From a virus, in IMG/VR virus record IMGVR_UViG_3300043015_001144, positions 1 through 21,043 of that record: a stretch of DNA of 21,043 nucleotides; one strand, given 5' to 3'. Made by a program: the position numbers and the translations under genes. Each line of letters starts with the position of its first letter. The first letter of the stretch is position 1. A model generated the notes under the pieces. The model was not told where the DNA came from and made no database searches. It saw only the letters and a program-made list of their open reading frames with translations. Below, one piece after another: positions 5,832 to 21,043 of the stretch.

Positions 5832-7064
5832 ATGGGTTTATTTGACGGACTTTTTGGCCTTTCAGGTTCTAAACGTAGTTTAGAGAACCCAAATACGCCT
5901 ATAACGGACACAACGCTTGACGAAGGCGGACAAGACCCGGACGCTATCCGCATCGATGCCAATACAATCCTATCTATTCCCGAATTTTACCGGGCAGTTC
6001 AAATCAAAAGCGGTGTTATCGCTTCGCTTCCTTTTTCAGTCGTTCGTGTTGAGGATGACAGACAAGAAAAGCTATTAACCCATCCAGTAACGCGCCTAAT
6101 CAATATTAGGCCGTCCGACCTTTACACTTCCTATTCTTTTCTGGAAACACTTGTATTACATCTGGAGCTATACGGTAATTTCTACGCTGAGATAAGACGG
6201 AGGCAAACCGGAGAGATACGGAGCCTGGAAATTATGGACCCGGCTACAATCAAAATTGAAAAGACGGAACGGGGCGACATTAGATACGTTGAACGGACGA
6301 GTGGCAGCAAAGAAAGAAAACTGTTTTCTGATCGTGTCTTTCACGTACACGAAACAGGTGTAACTGGCATGGCCGGTATTGATAAAATAAACGTACACAA
6401 AAAGAACTTTGCTTTGGCTATTGCTGCGCGTGACTATTTGGCCAACTTTAACGCAAATGGCACTTTTCTATCTGGTGTACTAACACATCCATCACAGTTA
6501 AAAAGCGAATCAGCTAAAAGGCTGCGCTTATCCTGGTCTAAATTATACTCAGGTTCTGGTAAGGCTGGCAAGGTGGCCGTACTTGAGGAGGGCATGGATT
6601 ATAAGCCAATCACAGTTACACCGATGGATGCAGGTAGCGAATTTACCAAAAACCAAATTACGGCAGATATTGCCCGTATTACCGGTGTACCTAAAATCCT
6701 ACTGGAAAATTACGAAGATGCTACCCTGAACAATGCCGAAAGTATTGCGCAGTTTTTCGTCAATTATACGATTCGTTTATTGGTAGAAAAGATTGAAGCT
6801 GAAATATACGCTAAACTTATACCAGAAGCGCAACAGGATAACCACAGGGCCTATTTTGATCTGAAAGGACTACTTAGACCTGATGCGCAGGGTAGAGCTT
6901 CATATATAGATGCCATGATGAAATATGGCATTATTAATCGAGATGAAGCGCGGAAAATGGAGGGGCTGAATCCGATTGAAGACGGCAGCGGTAAAGAATA
7001 TCTTGTACCGTTGAATATGTTTAATCCAAATGAACAACCAGATGGAAACCTTGAAGACAATTAA
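5832..7064 (+). CDS. Portal protein, HK97 family
   Basis: This is a 410-residue portal, the dodecameric ring at one capsid vertex through which DNA enters and leaves. Recognisable stretches include the MGLFDGLFG start, 'FYRAVQIKSGVIASLPFSVVR' (about residues 47-67), 'LHLELYGNFYAEI', 'VFHVHETG' and 'FTKNQITADIARITGVPKILL' (about 272-292), then 'TLNNAESIAQFFVNYTI'; these are typical of the HK97-type portal family. I prefer ATG at 5832 over an in-frame TTG at 5811 because it gives the usual N-terminus. Length is normal. Its last 35 bases overlap the prohead protease gene, the standard next gene in this module. Confidence 0.94.
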   Translation: MGLFDGLFGLSGSKRSLENPNTPITDTTLDEGGQDPDAIRIDANTILSIPEFYRAVQIKSGVIASLPFSVVRVEDDRQEKLLTHPVTRLINIRPSDLYTSYSFLETLVLHLELYGNFYAEIRRRQTGEIRSLEIMDPATIKIEKTERGDIRYVERTSGSKERKLFSDRVFHVHETGVTGMAGIDKINVHKKNFALAIAARDYLANFNANGTFLSGVLTHPSQLKSESAKRLRLSWSKLYSGSGKAGKVAVLEEGMDYKPITVTPMDAGSEFTKNQITADIARITGVPKILLENYEDATLNNAESIAQFFVNYTIRLLVEKIEAEIYAKLIPEAQQDNHRAYFDLKGLLRPDAQGRASYIDAMMKYGIINRDEARKMEGLNPIEDGSGKEYLVPLNMFNPNEQPDGNLEDN

Positions 7065-7717: not shown

Positions 7718-8917
7718 ATGAATTTGAAAAGTCTGTACGACAAAAAGGCTGCGATCTATGCCGATATGCAAGATTTGAGCAGCCGTCTGAAAAGTGAAGA
7801 GCGCGGCATGAATGCTGACGAACAAGAACGCTTTGAAAGAGCTAACAACGATTTTGAATCAATCGAAAAGCAGATTCAGAACTTGGAACGCTTGGAAGCT
7901 ATCACGAACACAGTTGAAGAGCGCAAAGAGGCTCAGGTAGACAATCGTTCACAAGATGAACAGTACCGGGATGCTTTTATTGCTTATGTTCAGAATCGCG
8001 ACTTAGACCAGGGTCAGCGTTCTATCCTCCAGCGTGGAACTGAAACAATCACTACTACCACCTCCGGCACTACTTACGGTGGCTACACTGTACCGACTGA
8101 GCTGTTTAACCAGCTTGATGTAGCCCTGAAGGCTTTTGGTGGCATGATGGATGTTTCTCGCATTATTGATACTGCTGGCGGTGGTGTGTTCAATATGCCT
8201 ACTTTGGATGATACATCTGCAAAAGCTGTTATTGTAAGCGAAGCAGCTTCTTCTACTGTTCAGGACATGACATTTAGCCGGATTACACTTGGTTCTTTCA
8301 CTTACCGTGACTTGGTTAAACTGTCTGAGGAGTTCATTCAGGATGAAGCCGTAAACGTGTTGGGCGAACTGGCTAATCTGATGGCTATTCGCTTTGGACG
8401 CGCATTAAATGAGCATTTCACAACTGGCGACGGTTCTGGTAAACCCACTGGATTTGTAACAAGTGCGACAACTGTGACAGGTGCTTCTGCTTCTGCTATT
8501 ACTGCTGATGACATCTTTGACCTGCTGCATGGTGTTGACCCTGCTTATCGTTCTATGCCAGGTGCTGCCTTTATGATGAACGATGCCACATTGAAGGCTA
8601 TCAAAAAGCTGACTATCGGCACTGCTGATGATCGTCCGCTTTGGGTTCCTTCTTTGCGTGATGGCGAGCCTTCTACCATCTTGGGCAAACCTTACGTAAT
8701 TAATCAGGACATGGCCGATATTGGCGCAAGTGCTAAGCCTATGGCATTTGGTGACTGGTCCAAGTATGTAATCCGTCGTGTACGCGGTACAAACATCCGC
8801 AGACTGAACGAACGCTACGCAGACGACCTTTCTGTTGGGTTCCTTGCGTTTGCTCGCTACGATGGTAAATTGCTGAACACAAGCGCAATTAAGACGCTTG
8901 CACAACCTGCTTCCTAA
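7718..8917 (+). CDS. Major capsid protein, HK97 fold, with N-terminal delta (scaffold) domain
   Basis: This is a 399-residue HK97-type capsid protein. Residues 1 to about 105 form a charged, heptad-rich helical segment (DMQDLSSRLKSEERG, then FESIEKQIQNLERLEAI) that matches the delta domain that acts as an internal scaffold and is removed by the prohead protease. The shell domain begins near 'SGTTYGGYTVPTELFNQ' (116-132). It contains the usual 'MPTLDDT', 'LVKLSEEFIQDEA', 'GDGSGKPTGF' and 'GKPYVINQDM' motifs. The cleavage point is probably between residues 100 and 116. Codon use looks more biased to C/T-ending forms than in the neighbouring genes, as expected for a highly expressed protein. Whether it forms HK97-style crosslinks cannot be told from sequence alone. 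Confidence 0.95.
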   Translation: MNLKSLYDKKAAIYADMQDLSSRLKSEERGMNADEQERFERANNDFESIEKQIQNLERLEAITNTVEERKEAQVDNRSQDEQYRDAFIAYVQNRDLDQGQRSILQRGTETITTTTSGTTYGGYTVPTELFNQLDVALKAFGGMMDVSRIIDTAGGGVFNMPTLDDTSAKAVIVSEAASSTVQDMTFSRITLGSFTYRDLVKLSEEFIQDEAVNVLGELANLMAIRFGRALNEHFTTGDGSGKPTGFVTSATTVTGASASAITADDIFDLLHGVDPAYRSMPGAAFMMNDATLKAIKKLTIGTADDRPLWVPSLRDGEPSTILGKPYVINQDMADIGASAKPMAFGDWSKYVIRRVRGTNIRRLNERYADDLSVGFLAFARYDGKLLNTSAIKTLAQPAS

Positions 8918-11020: not shown

Positions 11021-11437
11021 ATGGCAACTACTGGAATTGTAGACGGTAGTCTACTCAGAATCAAAATCGGCTCTTCTGTCGTAGCTTATGCGACTGTTTC
11101 AAATTATAGCCGTACTCGTAACGTTGAAGACCGGATTCACAAAGACCTGTCTTTAGGTCAGGTCGAAAAATCGCTTAAAGAAGCATCTGGTACTGTTTCA
11201 ATCGAAGGATTTTACGCTGAAGATGCGACTAGTAACAGTGTAGAAACGCTGGAAGGTGCATTTGCAGACAAAACGCTTTTGAGTGTTGAATTTACAACAG
11301 GTGTAAGCGGTGATTCGTTGCGTTCTTTTTCTGCCTACATTTCAAGTATTGAAATTAACGCAGAAGCTCAGCAGGACGTGACTTTTTCCGCTACTTTGGA
11401 GATTGACGGAGCTGTGACAATCACAACAAACGCATAA
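11021..11437 (+). CDS. Major tail tube protein
   Basis: This 138-residue, beta-rich protein with no cysteine is placed between the tail terminator and the tail-assembly chaperones, the standard position of the major tail tube subunit. It resembles the TP901-1-type tail tube family: 'IVDGSLLRIKIGSSVVAYAT' at the start, 'EASGTVSIEGFYAED', 'FADKTLLSVEFTTG', 'SFSAYISSIEINA' and a final 'ATLEIDGAVTITTN'. It is clearly related to a second protein at 14332-14736 just after the tape measure gene. The start is preceded by an A-rich leader, as in the capsid gene. Confidence 0.88.
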   Translation: MATTGIVDGSLLRIKIGSSVVAYATVSNYSRTRNVEDRIHKDLSLGQVEKSLKEASGTVSIEGFYAEDATSNSVETLEGAFADKTLLSVEFTTGVSGDSLRSFSAYISSIEINAEAQQDVTFSATLEIDGAVTITTNA

Positions 11438-11440
11438 TAA

Positions 11441-11788
11441 ATGAGAGAAGTAAAAAGGATAGCATTTAATGGGGTAGAGTTTCCAATGAGTTTCAACCGA
11501 TATGCTTTAGGTCGCTTCATGCGCGATCAGGGAATAAGTATTTCCCAGATGAACGAGCTGCCGGAGGATTTGGAAACGGTGCAAAAGCTGGCTTATTTTG
11601 GTATTGTAGGTGGATTTGCTGCTGAAAAGGGAAAAGACCCTGATTTGACATATATCCAGTTCTGTCTGGATTATGCCGATGATTCAGACGGTTTAAACCT
11701 GGCTATGGAATTGTTTGCAGAGCAGCAAGCGGAACAAGACGAAGGCGGTACCGAAAAAAAGCCGAAAGCGACAGCAAGCAAGAAGTAA
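11441..11788 (+). CDS. Tail assembly chaperone (gpG-like)
   Basis: This 115-residue helical protein is in the position of lambda gpG, the chaperone that binds the tape measure protein during tail assembly. It begins 'MREVKRIAFNGVEFPMSFNRYAL' and its helical body includes 'LAYFGIVGGFAAEKGKDPDLTYIQFCLDYADD'. Its lysine-rich end is read across a slippery A AAA AAG (11755-11761). Ribosomes that do not slip stop at TAA 11786-11788. Ribosomes that slip back one base would continue to 12114 as a longer G-T product. Placement between tube and tape measure, and the frameshift arrangement, support the call more than sequence identity does. Confidence 0.88.
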   Translation: MREVKRIAFNGVEFPMSFNRYALGRFMRDQGISISQMNELPEDLETVQKLAYFGIVGGFAAEKGKDPDLTYIQFCLDYADDSDGLNLAMELFAEQQAEQDEGGTEKKPKATASKK

Positions 11789-11796
11789 AGCTGTCG
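11755..11796 (+). promoter_or_regulatory. Programmed -1 ribosomal frameshift site (slippery heptamer plus stem-loop)
   Basis: The heptamer A AAA AAG occupies 11755-11761 in the correct reading phase (GAA AAA AAG). It is the same heptamer used in E. coli dnaX. Seven bases later CGACAGC (11769-11775) pairs perfectly with GCTGTCG (11790-11796) around a 14-base loop that holds the zero-frame TAA. After a -1 slip the frame is open from GCC at 11761 to the TAA at 12112-12114. Confidence 0.85.
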
Positions 11797-12114
11797 GACG
11801 TAGATGGTTTAGTTCTGGGTGTTGTTGGCATATCGTACACGGATTATATGCTGATGACATTCAGAACCATCAACGCAATCATAAAGGCTTACAGGCACGA
11901 ACAGCAAGAGAACATAAAGATAAGCTGGGAGCAGTCGCGTTTGATTGCGTTTTATTCAGCGAATCCGGAAACGGTAAAGAAAGCAGGTTATAAGGCAACC
12001 GGGTTGATTAAATTCCCTTGGGAAGTACCCGACAGTAAACCTAAGTCGTTAGCAGATTTGAAGGCGCAATTCGCTGACATTGATGCTAAAATAAAGCAAA
12101 TCGATGGCCAGTAA
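11761..12114 (+). CDS. Tail assembly chaperone T part, expressed as G-T fusion by -1 frameshift
   Basis: This is the -1 frame continuation of the chaperone gene. With 107 residues from the zero frame and 117 from this segment, the fusion would be 224 residues. The segment reads AESDSKQEVKLSDVDGLVLG and continues with 'YTDYMLMTFRTINAIIKAYRHEQQ', 'SWEQSRLIAFYSANPETVKKAGYK', 'LIKFPWEV' and a helical end. The 'R..A......NP' and 'FPW' features fit the second chaperone domain of siphoviruses, where the G-T form is needed in small amounts. The first ATG of this frame is at 11848, so a separate 88-residue product is possible, but it would lose the conserved beginning. The end overlaps the tape measure start by 11 bases. 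Confidence 0.82.
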   Translation, partial: AESDSKQEVKLSDVDGLVLGVVGISYTDYMLMTFRTINAIIKAYRHEQQENIKISWEQSRLIAFYSANPETVKKAGYKATGLIKFPWEVPDSKPKSLADLKAQFADIDAKIKQIDGQ

Positions 12115-14329
12115 ATTAACGGTAAGGTTAGGATTAGACCCATCTGGCTTTAATAAGAGCTTAAAGCAAGCCAGGCGCAGTCTGAACAAGTTTTCAAAAC
12201 AGACTAGGGAGATAGGTTCGAGCCTTACCCGTAGTCTTACTGTGCCTTTGGGCGGTTTAGGTATTGCCGCTATCAAATCCGCTGCCGATTTTGAAAAGTT
12301 GGAAAAGCAGCTAACTTCTGTTACTGGTTCGGTTGATAAATCTAGGGAACAGATAGCAAGGCTTAAAAAGATTGCTGAGGCTCCTGGTTTAGGCTTTGAG
12401 CAAGCTGTAAGTGCATCAGCTAGATTGCAGGCAGTTGGATTGAACGCTGAACAGGCGGAAAAGTCAATTGCCGAATTTGGTAATGCTGTTGCCAGATCTG
12501 GAGGTGGTGCGCAGGAATTTGACGGGGCTATCCTTGCATTAACTCAAATTGCAAGTAAGGGTAAAATATCAGCTGAAGAAATTAACCAGCTCAATGAGCG
12601 CATCTTTGAGATTAGACCAGCTTTGAAAAATGCTTTTGGCACAGCTAATAGCGAAGAATTGCAAAAGCTAGGTATTACATCCGAAGAATTTATTGCAAAG
12701 GTCACTGAAGAGTTTGCAAAACTTGACCGGGTTCAAGGTGGACTTGCAAACGCATTTGAGAACCTTACAATCGGTGTAAAATCGTTTTTGGCTGACATAG
12801 GTGGTGTTATTACTGAGCTGTTCCCAGTTCAGCAGATTGTTAGCCGTATTACTGACGGATTAACACGATTGGCGGAACGGTTTAAAGGTTTGGATGCGCC
12901 TTCGCAAAGGTTAATAATTATCCTGGGTGGCATCGCTGCGGCTATTGGCCCGGTTATTTTAGCTGTTTCATCCATTGCATCTGGTTTAGCTGTTTTAGCA
13001 TCTCCTATCGCTTTAACTGTTGCTGCTATTGCTGGTTTGGCTGCTATTTTTGTTACTGCCTATCAAAAGTCGGAAGTATTTCGGGATACAGTTCAGGTTA
13101 TTGGACTGGTCCTGAAGACGATTGTTGTAAACGCTTTCGAGTTGTTAGGTTCAGCGATTAGGACGGTTGTAAACCTGTTCGGACTTAATAACAAAACTTT
13201 AAAGAATAGCAGCAATAGTTTTAAAGAGTTCGGAGCTAGTTCTGTTGTGACTATTGATGGCGTAATTAATGCAATTAAACTACTGTTTAAGGCTTTCACG
13301 TTTGGCCCTAGATTAGTTAATGCTTTGGGTAGATCTTTGGCTGATGCATTTATAAAAGTGCGTCAATTCATAAAAACAGGTAATACAAGCCTATTAGGTG
13401 ATATAGGTAAGGGTTTTATTGACAATCTTGAAAACACGTTCAAGGGCGAAGGTATAAATAGGTTTTTTGATAAGGTCGAACGAGATGTAAAGTCAGCACA
13501 AAAGCGGATAAACGCAGCAAGGTTTAAGGCATCAATCGAAACACCTGTTGTTACAGGTGGCGGAGGAGATACGGCTGCGGCTCCAACTTCGGCAGGTGGT
13601 GCTGTTGCTGGTGCCGGGGTTTCTTCAGCTGGCGGTGGGTTTGTAGATGTTGCTGCTGCTGAAGCTGACAGATTAGAAGTCTTAAAAGTTGCTTTACAAC
13701 GTGCTTATGACCAGACTATATTAGGTTCATCTGCAATCAAACAGGATATTACCGAAATAGGTGTACAATCGCAAACAACAGGTGATTTAGTAGCTAGTTC
13801 GTTTGAAAGGGTTAGTACAGTATTATCTGAAAGCATTAACAAAACGACTGCACTACAAAAAGCTCAACAGCTTTACAACAAATCACTATCGGTTAATCAG
13901 GTCATTGCAGACAAATTAGGTTCTACTTTCGATGCTGTTTTTAATGCAGTAGCTGAGGGGAAAAACGCATTTAAGGCATTAAGCCAGGGTATTAAGCAAA
14001 TCGTTATCGACTTAATCAAAGCAGCGGCTAAGGCTGCTATTTTTGCCGTAATTACGTCTATTATCGTACCTGGTGGAGCTGGCTTTGCATCCTTATTTAA
14101 ATCTGGATTTAGTGCTTTATCTGGTCTACCAATCGGTAAAGCGGCCAGTGGTGGTATTGTTCCGAATAGTCAAATATTGAACGTAGGTGAACAGGGAGCT
14201 GAGGCGATTATTCCGCTGGATCGGATTAACGAATTTACAAAGGCTCAGGAGTTGCAGGTAAGAATAGAAGGTACTGAATTAGTTGCGCTGTTGAAGAATA
14301 GCGAAGATACTTATAACCGAATGTTTTAA
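12104..14329 (+). CDS. Tape measure protein
   Basis: This is a 741-residue tape measure protein that sets tail length. The N-terminus has the tape-measure domain pattern 'VRLGLDPSGFNKSLKQARR', 'AADFEKLEKQLTSVTGS', 'IAEAPGLGFEQAVSASARLQAVG' and 'ISAEEINQLNERI'. A long hydrophobic stretch at about 268-320 would insert in or cross the host membrane at injection. A glycine/alanine-rich linker occupies about 485-525. A second hydrophobic stretch is near 640-662. The end has the usual 'SGGIVPNSQILNVGEQGAEAIIPL' motif. By the common rule of about 0.15 nm per residue, the tail would be about 110 nm. The gene begins inside the chaperone fusion stop region, as usual. Confidence 0.95.
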   Translation: MASKLTVRLGLDPSGFNKSLKQARRSLNKFSKQTREIGSSLTRSLTVPLGGLGIAAIKSAADFEKLEKQLTSVTGSVDKSREQIARLKKIAEAPGLGFEQAVSASARLQAVGLNAEQAEKSIAEFGNAVARSGGGAQEFDGAILALTQIASKGKISAEEINQLNERIFEIRPALKNAFGTANSEELQKLGITSEEFIAKVTEEFAKLDRVQGGLANAFENLTIGVKSFLADIGGVITELFPVQQIVSRITDGLTRLAERFKGLDAPSQRLIIILGGIAAAIGPVILAVSSIASGLAVLASPIALTVAAIAGLAAIFVTAYQKSEVFRDTVQVIGLVLKTIVVNAFELLGSAIRTVVNLFGLNNKTLKNSSNSFKEFGASSVVTIDGVINAIKLLFKAFTFGPRLVNALGRSLADAFIKVRQFIKTGNTSLLGDIGKGFIDNLENTFKGEGINRFFDKVERDVKSAQKRINAARFKASIETPVVTGGGGDTAAAPTSAGGAVAGAGVSSAGGGFVDVAAAEADRLEVLKVALQRAYDQTILGSSAIKQDITEIGVQSQTTGDLVASSFERVSTVLSESINKTTALQKAQQLYNKSLSVNQVIADKLGSTFDAVFNAVAEGKNAFKALSQGIKQIVIDLIKAAAKAAIFAVITSIIVPGGAGFASLFKSGFSALSGLPIGKAASGGIVPNSQILNVGEQGAEAIIPLDRINEFTKAQELQVRIEGTELVALLKNSEDTYNRMF

Positions 14330-14331
14330 TT

Positions 14332-14736
14332 ATGGCTATAATCGATGGAGGCGAACTTCGGGTTTATATTGGTGGCACTCCGATTGCTTATGCAACAAGT
14401 AGTACAATAAACCTAACGGCACAAGTTGACGAACTTGCGCCTACTTCTGTTTCAGATGCTCCATTTACCGTAGTTAAGCCCAGACGGAAGAGCGGGAATA
14501 TTTCAACCAATAGCTTATACGGTACAAGCACCAATTACGATTTTAAGCAGATGTTTGATGCCTGGAATAATGGCACACAGCTAACTATTGCTTTTAAATC
14601 TGGAGGCGGCAACGAATGGGAGGTAAGTAGTTCAGCATACATTACATCTTTGTCAGCTACTGGTGCGGTAAGTGAAGACAGTAGCTTAAGGGCTACAATT
14701 ACATTCTCAGGAACGATAACAATATCAACAAACTGA
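14332..14736 (+). CDS. Second tail-tube-like protein (paralogue of the major tail protein)
   Basis: This 134-residue protein aligns along its length with the major tail tube protein at 11021. Shared positions include I-x-D-G-x-x-L-R-x-x-I-G near the start, A-Y-A-T at about residue 19, S-G-x-x-S in the middle, S-A-Y-I-x-S near 101, and the ending A-T with G-x-x-T-I-x-T-N. It starts two bases after the tape measure stop and ends three bases before the large tail-tip gene. A tube-fold protein here would suit a distal-tail or tube-cap ring that joins the tube to the tip complex. A tail tube duplication is seen; the specific role is inferred. Confidence 0.75.
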   Translation: MAIIDGGELRVYIGGTPIAYATSSTINLTAQVDELAPTSVSDAPFTVVKPRRKSGNISTNSLYGTSTNYDFKQMFDAWNNGTQLTIAFKSGGGNEWEVSSSAYITSLSATGAVSEDSSLRATITFSGTITISTN

Positions 14737-14739
14737 TAA

Positions 14740-17700
14740 ATGGCGGCACGCTTACAGAATACGATATATGATGCCAATGGTCAGGACTGGACTATTATAA
14801 TCGATGACGCGGATTATAGTGGTTCAGTCTTTGATATTGATATTACAGCTGCTAAAATTCAATGGCAGGCATCAAGTTCGGAGCGTTTCGCTCCTGTTAT
14901 GCCATCGGTGGCAGATATCGGATTCCGGGTAAACGGTGCAATCGAAAACGCTTTTGTTACAGATTACATTGCCGCATCTGAGCAGAGGTTTAAGCTGATA
15001 ATTTACAAAGGTGTAAACGTATTTTGGGTCGGTAATATCCAGACCGATAACGTCCGAAAGGAAGATAAAGAATATCCGTATATTTTCACGATTCGAGCGG
15101 CTGACGGTTTAGCCTTGTTAAAAGACATAGAGTATAATGATGATGGCAATCCGTATGAGGGAGTTCAGCCTTTATCTGTTCACCTGACAAATGCACTAAA
15201 CAAAACAGGTCTTACTGGATTACTTACTGATGTTTTGGCAACTAACATACATTGGTACAGCGACCAGAATACCGTTAGTGATAATGTTTTTTTGCTTACT
15301 GAATTAGACCACAGGAGGTTTATCAATATCGATACATCTGGTACTAGGTCTTATGAAAGTTGCTATAAAGTATTAGAAAGCATCTGCGAAGCATTCGGGG
15401 CCAGAATTGTACTAACTGATGGATCGTACAGGGTTATTCAAGTTAATGAGTACGAAGGAGGGGAATTAGATTTTTTTAATTTTGATTCTACCGGTAGTGC
15501 TATAAATTCAACTTCAGCTACAAGTTACAGGTTAGAGGATGGTGTTGATGTTATCAGATTAGGTGGCGGTTCGTTTCAATATTACCCGGCTTTAAAAAAG
15601 GCTGTTGTAAAATATACGCATTTTCAGGCTCAAAGCATTATACCTCCTGATTCGGTAAATAGCACATTGTTTAGTATTGACAACGTAGATAGCGGTGGAG
15701 GTACGAGTACAATACTTTTTAAAACTAAATACGAGGCTGAAACCGAGTTTACCGGAGATTATGTAAATGACCATCGTATTAAGTTTGGCGTTCAAATAAA
15801 GATTGGCCAGAAATACCTGCACAGACCTGCAAGTATGAGCGCAAACGGTTCAATATATTACGGAACTGCAATATGGAGGGATGCAATAAGCTACGTTGAA
15901 TATTACACTAAAGCACTATCAGAAGGCGCACCTATTGCCTTTGTTGATACTGCAATTATATACAGCCCAGGTATACCTGCTGATGGGCAAATGGATATAA
16001 GGGGGCAATATTTGGCGACGGTTGGGAAGGATGGCGTTAATTTAACGTTTGGCACATTTTCAAGTACAATATCCTTTTTTGATTCTTACCTTGAAATAGT
16101 ACCGGCTGGTGTGTTGTCAAGTAGGGCAAATGAAACTATTTATACTACTGAGAATGCAGCTACTGACAACAGCAAGAAAATAGAACTATCTGTTGAAATT
16201 GGAGATGGACCAAGTTTCAACGCTTTAGGTGCTTTACTTGTGCCGGATTCAGGTGCAATAAATACGTTAATTAAAGCTTCTGGATGGGCTAAAGACAATG
16301 TAGGCGTTGATACGCCAATTAGTAAGCTTTTGGCAAACGAGATAGTAAAAAGCCAATCTAAACCAGTAAGAATAATCGCAGCATCTTACATAGGTTCAAT
16401 CACCCCAATTAATAGCGTTTATTACAAGCTCAACGACTACGCTGTAAGACAAGCTACTTTGGATTTGGTTCAAGGCAAGACACAAGGATTGTTTTTTGAA
16501 TGTAACACTTCAGGAGCCGTCATAATCGAAAAAGACCCTGAACCTGTCTTTAATCCAGAGAACGAGCCAATCAGTCCGATTACACCTATTGGCGACATCG
16601 TAAAGAATCCAAATGCAGAGGCAGAAATTGACCCGGCTTTACAATCCACTTTTGATAGTATCAAGGTATTTGTTACAGACCAGGATATAAACGCAGGCGA
16701 TCTGGTTTCATCCGTTCAAATCGTACCAAGCGGAACGGATTACTTGATTAAAGATGGTGACGAATTTCAGGTCGTTGACAGCATTACCGGACAGATACAG
16801 ACGTTTACTGCGACGGCTGACGTTTTGGCTTCAGATACATCTGTAAGCGTTCAAAGTGTTACGGCTGATCACGATATTCTATCTGGTTCTAATATCAGCT
16901 TCAACCAGGAGCAGGTAATAATTAAGATAAACGAAAATTCAAGCGGTGGCGGTGGTGCTGTTTCCAGTCTGACCGGAGGCGAAGGTATAGACGTAGATGT
17001 AACGACCGGAGATGTTACGGCTAGCTTAGACTTAACTGAATTGCCTTTAGCTGGCTTTGGGTTCGATGCAAATGATTACATAGCTGGCAACAATGGCAGC
17101 TCCAATATTCAGGGAACTGTTTTAAGTATGTTTCAGAACCTGCTTTCTGCGGGTTCAAATATTACATTAACCAATACTGGTACTGGTATTCAAATATCCG
17201 CAACTGTACCTACTTCTGGGGTAGATAGTATATCTGTTGGAACGGGTTTAGATGGTGGCGGTACAGGTGCGGTTAGTATTACGCTCGATTTGAGTGAGTT
17301 GCCGCTTAGTGCTGGATATGATTATAACGATTATTTGGCGGGTACAACAAGTTCCGGGACGCTTAGTAAAACAAACGTTCTGGATATGTTCGCTAATATG
17401 ATTACAGCTGGCTCAAATGTGACTGTATCCAATACCGGTACACAGATTCAAATTAGTGCCAGCAGTTCTACGTATAGCTGGACAGTACGAGCTGAAGATT
17501 CCAATACTGAAGTAATTACGAACGGAGAGGTATTAGATGTAATAGCTGGAAATGGATTGACTACTACTGTAAGCGGTGGCAACTTGACTGTATTCTTGTC
17601 TGGACCTGGTTTATTAGGTCTTGGTGGTATTGACGGGGATTATGAAGCCTGGGTATTTGATGGCATTATAACAGGTCGTAGGAGCCTTAAAAGTATCCTG

Positions 17701-18129
17701 ACTGACATACTAACCAGTTCCGACGGTAGTGTCACAATCGGAACGAGCGGATCAAGTGTAAACCTGACGGCCAGCGGTGGAGGTGGTGGTACTGATGGGG
17801 ATGCTAATTGGGATGATGCTAGTGTAAATTTGCAGTATCTAAATGTGGATATGAGTAGCACAATTATTAGTACTACTTATTCCAATAAAAGACATTTTAC
17901 AATTGGCGCAAGCGTAACGAATACAGCAACAAGTGACACCTTGATATTATTGCCGTCTCCAAGTTCCACTTATCAGCATCACCAAATATGGGTAGCTGCT
18001 TATGATAATTCAGCTAGTTATTCAGTTAGGATTACATCTGGATCAACTATCAAGACATTAACGAATGGCGAGCTTGTTTGTGTTAGATGTGCAAGACTAG
18101 TTGGAACTTGGACATGGTTAGCGACTTAA
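14740..18129 (+). CDS. Large tail-tip / baseplate hub protein with C-terminal fibre-like repeats
   Basis: This 1129-residue tail protein lies directly after the tube paralogue. Its N-terminal 600 or so residues look like a globular, beta-rich tip or hub domain (beginning 'DANGQDWTIIIDDADYSGS', then 'VFWVGNIQTDNVRKEDKEYPY'). I know this layout from tail-tip proteins of Bacteroidota siphophages, but no named domain can be proven here. From about 740 the composition changes to Gly/Ser/Thr-rich. Three related units of about 76 residues lie at 746-823, 834-909 and 937-1012, separated by glycine runs, and are followed by a terminal domain of about 100 residues (1025-1129). The C-terminal part could act as a short trimeric fibre that contacts the host. 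There is no signal peptide. Confidence 0.78.
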   Translation: MAARLQNTIYDANGQDWTIIIDDADYSGSVFDIDITAAKIQWQASSSERFAPVMPSVADIGFRVNGAIENAFVTDYIAASEQRFKLIIYKGVNVFWVGNIQTDNVRKEDKEYPYIFTIRAADGLALLKDIEYNDDGNPYEGVQPLSVHLTNALNKTGLTGLLTDVLATNIHWYSDQNTVSDNVFLLTELDHRRFINIDTSGTRSYESCYKVLESICEAFGARIVLTDGSYRVIQVNEYEGGELDFFNFDSTGSAINSTSATSYRLEDGVDVIRLGGGSFQYYPALKKAVVKYTHFQAQSIIPPDSVNSTLFSIDNVDSGGGTSTILFKTKYEAETEFTGDYVNDHRIKFGVQIKIGQKYLHRPASMSANGSIYYGTAIWRDAISYVEYYTKALSEGAPIAFVDTAIIYSPGIPADGQMDIRGQYLATVGKDGVNLTFGTFSSTISFFDSYLEIVPAGVLSSRANETIYTTENAATDNSKKIELSVEIGDGPSFNALGALLVPDSGAINTLIKASGWAKDNVGVDTPISKLLANEIVKSQSKPVRIIAASYIGSITPINSVYYKLNDYAVRQATLDLVQGKTQGLFFECNTSGAVIIEKDPEPVFNPENEPISPITPIGDIVKNPNAEAEIDPALQSTFDSIKVFVTDQDINAGDLVSSVQIVPSGTDYLIKDGDEFQVVDSITGQIQTFTATADVLASDTSVSVQSVTADHDILSGSNISFNQEQVIIKINENSSGGGGAVSSLTGGEGIDVDVTTGDVTASLDLTELPLAGFGFDANDYIAGNNGSSNIQGTVLSMFQNLLSAGSNITLTNTGTGIQISATVPTSGVDSISVGTGLDGGGTGAVSITLDLSELPLSAGYDYNDYLAGTTSSGTLSKTNVLDMFANMITAGSNVTVSNTGTQIQISASSSTYSWTVRAEDSNTEVITNGEVLDVIAGNGLTTTVSGGNLTVFLSGPGLLGLGGIDGDYEAWVFDGIITGRRSLKSILTDILTSSDGSVTIGTSGSSVNLTASGGGGGTDGDANWDDASVNLQYLNVDMSSTIISTTYSNKRHFTIGASVTNTATSDTLILLPSPSSTYQHHQIWVAAYDNSASYSVRITSGSTIKTLTNGELVCVRCARLVGTWTWLAT
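16975..17208 (+). repeat. Tail-tip protein repeat unit A
   Basis: Residues 746-823 of the tail-tip protein. It contains DLTELPL, then D-x-N-D-Y-I-A-G, then L-x-M-F-Q-N, and ends AGSNITLTNTGTGIQISA. It is closely matched by unit B. Confidence 0.8.
17239..17466 (+). repeat. Tail-tip protein repeat unit B
   Basis: Residues 834-909. It contains DLSELPL, DYNDYLAG, LDMFANM and ends AGSNVTVSNTGTQIQISA, matching unit A at most conserved positions. Confidence 0.8.
17548..17775 (+). repeat. Tail-tip protein repeat unit C, diverged
   Basis: Residues 937-1012. It keeps the G-x-G-L start, the D-Y-E-A near the middle (in place of NDYxAG), the SILTDIL helix and an ending SSDGSVTIGTSGSSVNLTAS that parallels the AGSN-V-T end of units A and B. 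The LELPL-type segment has diverged. Confidence 0.6.
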
Positions 18130-18142
18130 AAAACCTATTCAA

Positions 18143-18196
18143 ATGAAGAATATAACCGTATTAGCATTATTGCTATTTCCTGTTTTGATTCAGGCG
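18143..18196 (+). other. Sec signal peptide of the fibre-like protein
   Basis: Encodes an N-region MKN, a hydrophobic core ITVLALLLFPVLI and a C-region ending Q-A before Q19. The predicted cleavage after A18 leaves an N-terminal glutamine, a very common arrangement in Bacteroidota secreted proteins. Confidence 0.75.
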
Positions 18197-21043
18197 CAAA
18201 TACTGCCGAATCAGACTTCACAAAAAGACCCAGAGGGGACAGATGCGATTTACACGCAAGAAAACGGAACGCTGAATAAAATTCTATTCGATTCTGCTTT
18301 TCATTTCTTTATTCCCAGAATCAAAACGGCTGCACTCTCCTACTCGATTACATCCACAGACAATCCGGACAGTTTACGCGGTTATTTCGTGCTGGACAAT
18401 ACAGCTACCTGGTATTACATTGATTCCGCTTCTGCTGCCGTTTCACTTGGAGGCGGTGGCGGTGGCGGCACAACGCAGCTATTAAGCTATTCAGGTACTG
18501 ACTTATCTATTAGCGGTGGCAATACGGTTAGTTTATCAAATCTACTGGACAATACCGATACACAACTAACTGAGGCCGAAGTAGATGCCTATGTTGCTGA
18601 CAATGGCTATCTGACATCATACACAGAAACGGATCCGGTATGGACAGCGGATAAGCCGAATTACGCTACAACTGCTTACGTAGATGCAAACGATGATACA
18701 GGTACAGACGACCAAACAGCATCCGAGGTAAGTGTTACGCCTACCGGCAATCTGGAAAGTACAAACGTTCAGGACGCTTTAGAAGAAATACAAACACAGG
18801 TAGACGGATTAGGTGGAGGCGGAACTGCTGACGGTGTGGCTACGGCTGGAACGTATAACGCAGGAACGGAGAGTATTGATGTGACTGTTGCTTCTCCTGG
18901 TTCTAACTTTAGTATTGATGTTTCCGCTTTATTGGATAATACGAACTTAACTGAAGCGGAAGTCGATGCTTTTGTTGATAATAACGGATATTTAACTAGC
19001 GAAATAGATGGCAGCGTAACTAACGAAATACAAGACCTGCAATCTGTTACTGATGAGGGCGCAACTACTACGAATCCTGTTATTTTAGCTGGTGGTGTAA
19101 CATCTGGAGCGAATGGCGGCACTAATGGATTTATAAAATTGCAAAGCAATATTGGACCATCTGCTACCTTATCTGCTGTTGGTTCTGGTTTAAGAATAAA
19201 TCCAGACCCAGGTGGTGGGCCTACTGGAGTTGTAAGTATAAATAGACAGGCAGATAAAAACCCAACTACTTTTATACTTGAGGATGCTACTTCTATTTTA
19301 ATGGAATACGAAGACAGTGGAACATCTGGTGATATTGTAATTGAATCAGGACCATTAACTAACGGTTCAACCTTGACTTTAGGAGCTAACGCATCTGGCC
19401 CTAGGATAGTTATGGGTAGATATGGTCTTGTTGGCAATCCAGCTAACTTAAGGTTCAACGTGTTTAATACGTCAACGGAAGTTGAGGACACTAAAATGAT
19501 TTTAACGACAAATGGTCGCTTAGGAATCGGAACGACTACACCTACTACCCTACTCGATGTAAACGGAACAGCTAGTATTTCAGGTGCTTTAACATTAGGT
19601 TCAGTTACACAAGATGACACAGAAACAAATCTACTTGTACTGCAATCAGATGGTGAGGTACAATACCGGGACGTTTCCACAATTAGCGCGGGAACAGATG
19701 ACCAGACGGCTGCGGAAGTGCCTGTAACACCTACCGGAAATTTAAATAGTACAGATGTTCAGGCAGCCTTAGAGGAACACCAAGCGGATATTGATGCTAT
19801 TACCGGTGGAGGGGGAGTTGCTGACGGTGTTATTACCGGAGCTTCGTACAATGCAGGAACTGAGCAAATAGATGTAACTGTTAATGCTCCGGGTTCAAGT
19901 TTCAGCTTTAATGTATCTGCATTGTTGGACAACACGGATGCGCAAGATTTAAGCCTTGATGGAACGACTTTGAGCCTTACCGGAGATGCTACACCGGTAG
20001 ACCTTTCGGTAGTTCAAGACGGAACTGGTACAGATGACCAGGTAATAGACGTTTTTTCGATTACAGGAAATACCTTGAGTTTATCAATCGAAGACGATGG
20101 CGAAGCGACAAAGACAGTTGATTTATCCGGATTGACAGCTAGTCCGAACTTTGACTACATCCAATTAAATACGGCTTTTGATAATCAAGACTTTTCCGTT
20201 GGTGAGATGGGCTGGGATGAAACCGGGGCTTTTCGGTTTGGCGTTGATGACAATTACAGCTTCGCAGTTGGTCAGGATATGTATAAGGAAGTACATAATA
20301 CAACGGCTTCGCTTATCCCTCAAGGTACGGCTTTGATGATGACAGGTGCAGACGGTGCATCGAATGTGTTTACAGTTGCACCAATGAACTACCCTACTAT
20401 CGGATCTGAGTTTTTAATCGGTATAGCTGCAAACGATATTGCTGCTGGTGGGTTTGGTGTGGCAGTTCAAAATGGATATGTAAAAGGAATTGACGTTAAT
20501 GGGGAAGGCTGGAGCGAAGGCGATGTACTTTACTTAGACGAAACGAGCGCAGGAGGTTTAACTACAACCGTAGGTAATGTTTTGGTGGCAGCTGTAACTA
20601 AAGCAGGTTCAAATGGTACAATCTACGTTCGTCCTGACTTTTATGCTAGAAACGAAATACAAACACTTAGCTTAGGTGCAAATACGCTTTCGCTTACAGA
20701 TGGCGGCAGCGTTGATTTGAGCGGGTATTTGGATGACACGAACTTAACAGAAGCTGAAGTGGATGCTTTTGTTGCCAACAATGGTTATTTGACATCTTAT
20801 ACTGAAACTGACCCTATTTGGACAGCGGAAAAATCAGATTATGCCACTATTGCCTACGTAGACGCAAACAGCGGAGGTTTAACATGGGGCGATCAGAGTA
20901 TTTACAACAATGTATCTGCTACGACCTTAGATTTTGCGACTTATGCTGCGGCTAATTCGGATATTAGAAACTTTAATTTCGGGTTGACTGCTACTCCATT
21001 AAGTGCAGACCCGGATGTTATATTAAACCTTCCTGCTGATGCT
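18143..21043 (+). CDS. Fibre/adhesin-like protein with Sec signal peptide, 3' partial
   Basis: An open frame starts at ATG 18143, 13 bases after the tail-tip stop, and runs to the window edge without a stop (967 codons). The N-terminus MKNITVLALLLFPVLIQAQ is a typical signal peptide with likely cleavage after A18. A seven-glycine linker (residues 103-109) follows a domain of about 80 residues. The rest is repeat-rich: 'LTEAEVDAxVxxNGYLTS' units at 142, 269 and 868, a pair of units of about 82 residues at 187 and 517, and LGIGTTTPTTLLDVNG at 460-475. A domain at about 715-835 has the 'GWSEGDVLYLDETSAGGLT' pattern seen in phage fibre and decoration proteins. It is probably a receptor-binding fibre or a secreted adhesin. 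The stop and any C-terminal chaperone or anchor lie beyond the window. Confidence 0.85.
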   Translation, partial: MKNITVLALLLFPVLIQAQILPNQTSQKDPEGTDAIYTQENGTLNKILFDSAFHFFIPRIKTAALSYSITSTDNPDSLRGYFVLDNTATWYYIDSASAAVSLGGGGGGGTTQLLSYSGTDLSISGGNTVSLSNLLDNTDTQLTEAEVDAYVADNGYLTSYTETDPVWTADKPNYATTAYVDANDDTGTDDQTASEVSVTPTGNLESTNVQDALEEIQTQVDGLGGGGTADGVATAGTYNAGTESIDVTVASPGSNFSIDVSALLDNTNLTEAEVDAFVDNNGYLTSEIDGSVTNEIQDLQSVTDEGATTTNPVILAGGVTSGANGGTNGFIKLQSNIGPSATLSAVGSGLRINPDPGGGPTGVVSINRQADKNPTTFILEDATSILMEYEDSGTSGDIVIESGPLTNGSTLTLGANASGPRIVMGRYGLVGNPANLRFNVFNTSTEVEDTKMILTTNGRLGIGTTTPTTLLDVNGTASISGALTLGSVTQDDTETNLLVLQSDGEVQYRDVSTISAGTDDQTAAEVPVTPTGNLNSTDVQAALEEHQADIDAITGGGGVADGVITGASYNAGTEQIDVTVNAPGSSFSFNVSALLDNTDAQDLSLDGTTLSLTGDATPVDLSVVQDGTGTDDQVIDVFSITGNTLSLSIEDDGEATKTVDLSGLTASPNFDYIQLNTAFDNQDFSVGEMGWDETGAFRFGVDDNYSFAVGQDMYKEVHNTTASLIPQGTALMMTGADGASNVFTVAPMNYPTIGSEFLIGIAANDIAAGGFGVAVQNGYVKGIDVNGEGWSEGDVLYLDETSAGGLTTTVGNVLVAAVTKAGSNGTIYVRPDFYARNEIQTLSLGANTLSLTDGGSVDLSGYLDDTNLTEAEVDAFVANNGYLTSYTETDPIWTAEKSDYATIAYVDANSGGLTWGDQSIYNNVSATTLDFATYAAANSDIRNFNFGLTATPLSADPDVILNLPADA
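18566..18694 (+). repeat. Fibre protein repeat R, copy 1
   Basis: Residues 142-184, from LTEAEVDAYVADNGYLTS to AYVDAND. Nearly the same 43 residues recur at 20744-20872, about 2.2 kb away, and a partial copy is at 18947. Confidence 0.85.
18701..18943 (+). repeat. Fibre protein repeat S, copy 1
   Basis: Residues 187-267, beginning GTDDQTASEVSVTPTGNL and ending VSALLDNT. It contains a QDALEEIQTQVDGL coiled-coil-like helix, a GGGG linker and the 'YNAGTESIDVTV' strand region. Confidence 0.85.
18947..19000 (+). repeat. Fibre protein repeat R, partial copy 2
   Basis: Residues 269-286 encode LTEAEVDAFVDNNGYLTS only. The downstream YTETDP part present in copies 1 and 3 is replaced by an unrelated EIDGSVTNEIQD segment. 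Confidence 0.8.
19691..19936 (+). repeat. Fibre protein repeat S, copy 2
   Basis: Residues 517-598, beginning GTDDQTAAEVPVTPTGNL and ending VSALLDNT, with the same helix (QAALEEHQADIDAI), GGGG linker and 'YNAGTEQIDVTV' region as copy 1. One residue longer than copy 1. Confidence 0.85.
20744..20872 (+). repeat. Fibre protein repeat R, copy 3
   Basis: Residues 868-910, LTEAEVDAFVANNGYLTS to AYVDANS, aligning without gaps to copy 1 with about nine substitutions in 43 positions. Confidence 0.85.

Follow-up and report, generated by a model that had tools for sequence, protein, structure and literature searches.

The gene at the 3' end of IMGVR_UViG_3300043015_001144, a linear virus fragment of 21,043 bases (the whole of which is called here the window), encodes a fibre that is cut off by the contig end and that starts with a signal peptide of the Bacteroidota type. 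Judging from its sequence and from that of its relatives, it is rather probable that this product is the distal tail fibre, either receptor-binding or adhesive, of a Bacteroidota phage, and that it would be exported via Sec and joined to the tail at lysis. What directly supports this idea is the leader itself, its conservation, its lineage-specific concentration on genes for fibres and depolymerases and on a small partner gene, and the annotation of leader-bearing relatives as virion components on the basis of MS/MS data.

According to the model that we propose, the fibre might be synthesised as a Sec preprotein and reach the periplasm by export, where signal peptidase I (SPI) would presumably cut behind residue 18 and the Gln thus exposed at the N-terminus would presumably be cyclised to pyroglutamate; maturation would take place outside the cytoplasm, and lysis, by mixing the periplasm with the particles assembled in the cytoplasm, would allow the fibre to attach to the tail. 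Export, cleavage, and pyroglutamate formation are suggested by the literature on Bacteroidota signal peptides, while periplasmic folding and the joining of fibre and tail at lysis are put forward more tentatively.

The Fibre Gene and Its Genomic Context

The late structural cluster of the window comprises, on the plus strand, an HK97-type major capsid protein (7718..8917; PF05065), a tail tube protein (11021..11437; PF06199, phrog_1407), the tape measure protein (12104..14329; PF20155 and PHROG tail families), a second tail-tube-like gene (14332..14736; phrog_1407), and a presumed tail tip of 1,129 aa (14740..18129), assigned from its position after the tape measure and giving no family match. 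Terminase, portal, and protease genes are also neighbours of the fibre gene. The two tube-like genes, which flank the tape measure and belong to the same PHROG, are 28% identical in an alignment. Two overlapping small frames (11441-11788 and 11715-11993/11848-12114) occupy positions 11441-12114, between tube and tape measure, where a frameshifted tail assembly chaperone is usually encoded. The tip protein used as a query retrieved no relatives from the phage collection or IMG/VR, and the capsid query retrieved none from IMG/VR.

As originally predicted, the fibre frame begins 13 bases past the tip gene, which ends at 18129, and comprises 967 codons (18143..21043, plus strand), being still open at the record end; its first codon is ATG. 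The statement that its body looks like a phage fibre is equally borne out by its composition, which is rich in Gly, Ser, Thr, and Asn, with 2.7% K+R and no Cys, by its location in the tail cluster downstream of the tape measure and tip, and by a domain common to annotated tail fibres. This mid-domain (residues 640-860; 20060..20722, plus strand) is about 25% identical to the fibres of relatives and contains a PF09956 (Phage_cement_2)-like match above the cutoff at residues 750-827; residues 633-836 match the "tail fiber" of MW202796 and the "putative tail protein" of Nitrincola 1M3-16. The PDB sequence matches are weak (8on4, E 0.001, residues 406-507), and when the whole protein was compared with 84,980 species genomes, one weak match was returned, in a KSB1 MAG. 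On the minus strand, a GTG-started frame of 303 aa (18769-19680) runs antisense to the fibre and is probably a by-product of its composition.

A Q-Rule Leader on the Window Fibre

The N-terminus had been described as a clean 18-residue signal peptide, and indeed the first 18 codons (18143..18196, plus strand) encode MKNITVLALLLFPVLIQA, the N-terminus reading MKNITVLALLLFPVLIQA^QILPN; the n-region is basic, the core is hydrophobic, and Ala occupies -1 of the predicted QA^Q cleavage site. The Gln codon at +1 (18197..18199, plus strand) opens the predicted mature fibre (18197..21043, plus strand), which is recognised from the open frame, the composition, and the domain similarity to tail fibres. 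Gln at +1 characterizes about 71% of the SPI substrates of Bacteroidota and few elsewhere (the Q-rule; PMC5837995). The window fibre combines an n/h/c leader, a small residue at -1, and Gln at +1, and on these grounds it may be regarded as a Q-rule Sec preprotein, whose leader is presumably used and cleaved.

The leader calls were made with a rule-based Sec/SPI scorer (not SignalP), and the false-positive rate of this caller, close to 1%, might suggest that the hydrophobic N-terminus is due to chance or to a wrong start. The scorer accepted 241 of 20,000 shuffles (1.2%) of the same 39 window residues and 14 of 2,302 internal segments (0.6%) of the leader-bearing proteins analysed; it called no leader on any other window gene. 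Upstream of the fibre, the frame is closed by an in-frame stop at 18119, and the next in-frame GTG and ATG are codons 83 and 387, respectively; since no in-frame alternative start outside the leader exists before codon 83, the leader is not explained away by a misplaced start. These tests, together with the conservation of the leader in the syntenic loci and in all the N-module loci described below, speak against an origin by chance or by a wrong start, which we reject as excluded in practice.

Syntenic Relatives and the Fibre-Partner Pair

Syntenic loci (L numbers) were found in IMG/VR using the tape measure as the query and anchor. Where a fibre-size gene with a complete start follows the tip in these loci, a leader with +1 Gln is almost always present; this is the case for L008, L012/L014/L016, L040, L045, L055, L065, L070, L071, L076, L077, L079, L082, L085, L088, L089, and L093, as well as for phage phi39:1 (L099), in which tip and fibre are separated by a 107-aa gene. 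L041 is doubtful in this respect, and L044 lacks a leader fibre despite belonging to the same tape-measure group. In L046, the leader of the gene after the tip, which starts at 6820, is of the lipoprotein type (SA^C) and not of the SPI type, and this gene resembles the window fibre (65% over 37 residues).

Downstream of the fibre, a further leader gene of about 200-250 aa (alignment A3) is often present, examples of which (L065:15436-16086, L048:7574-8188, and L008:16823-17467; about 204-218 aa) have only three invariant residues. No family and no PDB sequence match could be assigned to this partner of about 200 aa, and its AlphaFold model was poor (pLDDT 61), with no confident fold or meaningful PDB match. 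In other loci (L048, L050, L057, L060, L061, L063, L067, L072, L075, and L078), the pair is located upstream of the tape measure instead; because the pair can sit at either side of the tape measure, fibre and partner appear to move as a cassette, and we therefore expect a leader-bearing partner of about 200 aa to follow the truncated window fibre. The fibres of the L065 group are conserved over their first ~460 residues, including the leader, and vary in their C-terminal parts, as receptor-binding fibres would be expected to do.

Two further observations concern these neighbourhoods. Directly 3' of the pair in L065 (16096-16827), L070, L076, L077, L079, and L082 lies a gene whose 243-aa product carries caspase-like motifs (HIGINKY, HSGHG, and DTCYSE) and gave no Pfam match at E 0.01. 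A phage with a different gene content carries in its tail cluster a Q-rule leader fibre (L004:4707-5654, MKNFILFILFIVSLEVTA^QQ) with DPxWTADKPNYVTTSYL repeats that resemble those of the window fibre.

Conservation of the Leader in the N-Module Family

In part of the leader family, the cleavage site is directly followed by a mature N-terminal module, Q[FWY]..P....LGxQTTGDGLxYRG. A search for this N-module yielded 80 loci with 38 distinct leaders. A hydrophobic leader ending in [AGS]^Q immediately precedes the module in 80/80 loci, residue -1 being A, G, or S in all of them, and the +1 Gln is encoded by CAG in 58 and by CAA in 22. The 38 distinct leaders have a mean identity of 30% over their last 16 residues, versus 82% over the first 30 mature residues, and none of them has a charged residue in its last 13 positions. 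The leader appears to be constrained in its properties and not in its sequence, its function probably being kept while the sequence drifts.

In a subgroup (L178:5878-8124, L202:5839-8034, and the L147-L212 group), the leaders are extended to 58-66 residues, compared with an ordinary length of about 17-30 residues in other fibres, and their hydrophobic core is preceded by a basic amphipathic stretch that is conserved (MEEIKAPKKERKFLK...). In outline, these leaders are similar to the extended signal peptides of autotransporters. In some of the genes, an internal ATG 27 codons ahead of the Gln could yield a short leader.

The next gene was readable in 62 N-module loci and encodes a leader-bearing partner in 18; in most of the remaining loci it encodes a 134-aa protein, which in L178 is a holin followed by an amidase. 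Many leader fibres have a holin and then an endolysin directly downstream.

Leaderless Fibres

A leader is not found on every fibre of this host group: leaderless fibres occur in Bacteroidota phages of Croceibacter, Polaribacter, and Nonlabens, in phi17:1 and phi18:1, and in Flavobacterium phage 11b, and since several Bacteroidota phages carry them, export is not a general requirement. The mid-domain was found in 34 loci or records, with a leader only in L110 (a 102-kb contig), L111-L113, L115, L129, and L132; it is present without a leader in the fibres of the Limnohabitans DC31 and Nitrincola 1M3-16 phages. It had been proposed that homologues starting downstream of the leader would argue against export. 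The comparison gave a twofold answer: the syntenic fibres keep the leader, and the leaderless fibres found elsewhere share the middle domain alone. A profile comparison between the mature N-terminus of the leader family and the N-terminus of the leaderless phi17:1/phi18:1 fibres revealed no similarity, so that a common docking domain is not supported.

Leader Proteins Annotated as Virion Components in Cellulophaga Phages

Virion evidence comes from four isolated Cellulophaga phages, whose records assign 11 fibre or pectate-lyase proteins with leaders to the virion on the basis of MS/MS, an annotation that is the depositors' own and that exported proteins co-purifying with virions could also produce. 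These are gp25 and gp26 of phi39:1, for both of which GenBank notes MS/MS evidence, gp091-094 of phi10:1, where five consecutive genes (gp091-gp095) have leaders, gp101-104 of phi19:1, and gp08 of phiSM. Gln occupies +1 in 10 of the 11, the sole exception being phi19:1 gp104 (L220:8752-10092), with a predicted Lys at +1. Leaders are absent from all 29 other virion proteins with an MS/MS annotation, which come from three of these phages and one sister phage. In phi39:1, the leader proteins are the only fibre candidates besides the tip.

Leader genes are common to several families, as seen in phi46:3 and phi13:2 (Pachyviridae), Nekkels (Assiduviridae), and Ingeline (Duneviridae). An identical leader and short mature N-terminus (MKHTISIVLFFILSLGLNA^QTVEGTVGSDGSLIPYNVS) starts both a fibre of ~310 aa and a pectate lyase of 658 aa; because they are common to such different proteins, leader and N-terminus seem to travel as a module.

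These proteins call into question the premise of the original prediction that virion proteins should not be exported. Of the options that it raised, the best fit is that of a component that would be exported and joined to virions at release: leader proteins at a like position are annotated as virion components in the four isolated phages.

Alternative Explanations

According to the main rival, the infected cell exports the leader protein as a surface adhesin, a depolymerase, or a decoy that blocks receptors, and the protein sticks to particles or membrane fragments and co-purifies with virions without being a functional part of them. The pectate-lyase-like leader proteins of the Cellulophaga phages would work as exported enzymes, and the Q-rule genes of Porphyromonas gingivalis phages have been read as possible outer-membrane modifiers (PMC10367356). 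However, the MS/MS annotation as virion components extends to all eleven leader proteins in four phages, phi39:1 would be left with only its tip and no other fibre candidate, and the conserved N-terminus with a variable C-terminus is what receptor-binding fibres typically have; we thus regard this reading as unlikely, even if a surface-adhesin or receptor-blocking role could coexist with a role in the virion. A second rival, membrane-tethered assembly, is quite unlikely in our judgement: here the leader would target the fibre to the inner membrane, and tails would be finished either across this membrane or from its cytoplasmic side, with the fibre, cleaved late or partially, remaining tethered and not periplasmic. 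The extended leaders with their basic amphipathic stretch fit such a scheme, as does the fact that most extended-leader genes directly adjoin the holin, but the invariant +1 Gln and the small -1 residue point to normal SPI cleavage and Gln cyclisation outside the membrane, and the other leaders are of ordinary length.

That the fibre gene was recently captured from a host secreted protein, with its leader kept by accident, appears very improbable. The leader does obey the host rule, and the GIGTT motif at residue 461 of the window fibre, which resembles repeats that occur in secreted Bacteroidota proteins, was counted in favour of a capture; against it, leaders persist over many divergent loci under strong constraint, and the species genomes gave just the KSB1 match. 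A captured gene with a retained leader, one of the options originally listed, fails to explain a leader that is present in every N-module locus in 38 different sequences, although the leader may have originated in a host long ago.

Features of other kinds of exported proteins were also considered. A C-terminal sorting domain (T9SS, e.g., TIGR04183) is absent in the complete fibres tested, the window fibre being truncated, and one partner protein gave a sub-threshold match to such a domain (E 0.0035). Regarding trimeric autotransporters, the L065 fibre has YadA_head repeats and no anchor, and the truncated window fibre has neither. Lom-like outer-membrane morons are short OmpX-type beta-barrels of about 200 aa; the window fibre exceeds 967 aa and has a fibre domain. 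Nor do the sequences support the idea that the fibres are exported because they require disulfides, as the window fibre has 0 Cys and other fibres have 0 to 8.

Significance and Comparison with Known Systems

Extending the preferred reading, that of a fibre exported via Sec and joined to the tail at lysis, we give about even chances to the broader idea that many tailed Bacteroidota phages build two-compartment virions, with head, tail, and tip made in the cytoplasm and a fibre/depolymerase set passing through the periplasm (Sec, SPI, and pyroglutamate), the two being joined at lysis; the leader and a short N-terminal docking peptide would form a module moving between fibres and phage families. 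If this is true, a widespread set of phages would have a second assembly compartment, and this would also account for a possible coating or masking of the producing cell by fibres ahead of lysis. Fibres starting with pyroglutamate would be predicted in virions, the N-termini expected for phi10:1 being pyro-QTTDVVK (gp091), pyro-QNIR (gp092), pyro-QTVIK (gp093), and pyro-QTVEGTVGSDGSLIPYNVSGGLDETAVDTK (gp094). For annotation purposes, a Q-rule leader beside tail or lysis genes could flag fibres and depolymerases of Bacteroidota phages that are otherwise hard to recognise.

According to the textbook view, the fibres of tailed phages are made and attached in the cytoplasm. The gene itself is a tail fibre, that is, of a known kind; the assembly route that it implies, if confirmed, would be new for tailed phages. 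A literature search, which left most subscription papers and bioRxiv preprints outside its scope, returned no paper on export leaders of tailed-phage fibres or on a link between the Q-rule and virion fibres.

The window fibre shares with distal fibres, receptor-binding proteins, and fibre depolymerases the late position, the repetitive polar composition, the mid-domain, and, in its relatives, the conserved N-terminus and variable C-terminus; it differs from them in its Sec/SPI leader, which the homologues from the examined Proteobacteria phages and from most other phages lack. The coat proteins of filamentous phages are also virion proteins with signal peptides, assembled at the envelope, but these phages are filaments extruded through the membrane and not tailed particles assembled in the cytoplasm. 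The target proteins of phage DGRs have been reported without signal peptides (PMC6199706). The Q-rule SPI substrates described in Bacteroidota have the same n/h/c regions and Gln at +1, but are host proteins, whereas here the leaders belong to phage fibre genes, some of them annotated as virion components. In P. gingivalis phages (Nixviridae), five Q-rule genes without an assigned function have been reported (PMC10367356; repeated in PMC10653852); their leaders are of the same type and, unlike that of the window, are not tied to fibres or virions in the passages concerned. Lastly, Lom of lambda, the fOg44 endolysin Lys44, and the SAR endolysins are phage products that take the Sec route of the host (PMC12309495, PMC6116005), and thus share with the window fibre the use of Sec during infection, but they are membrane or lysis proteins and not fibres.
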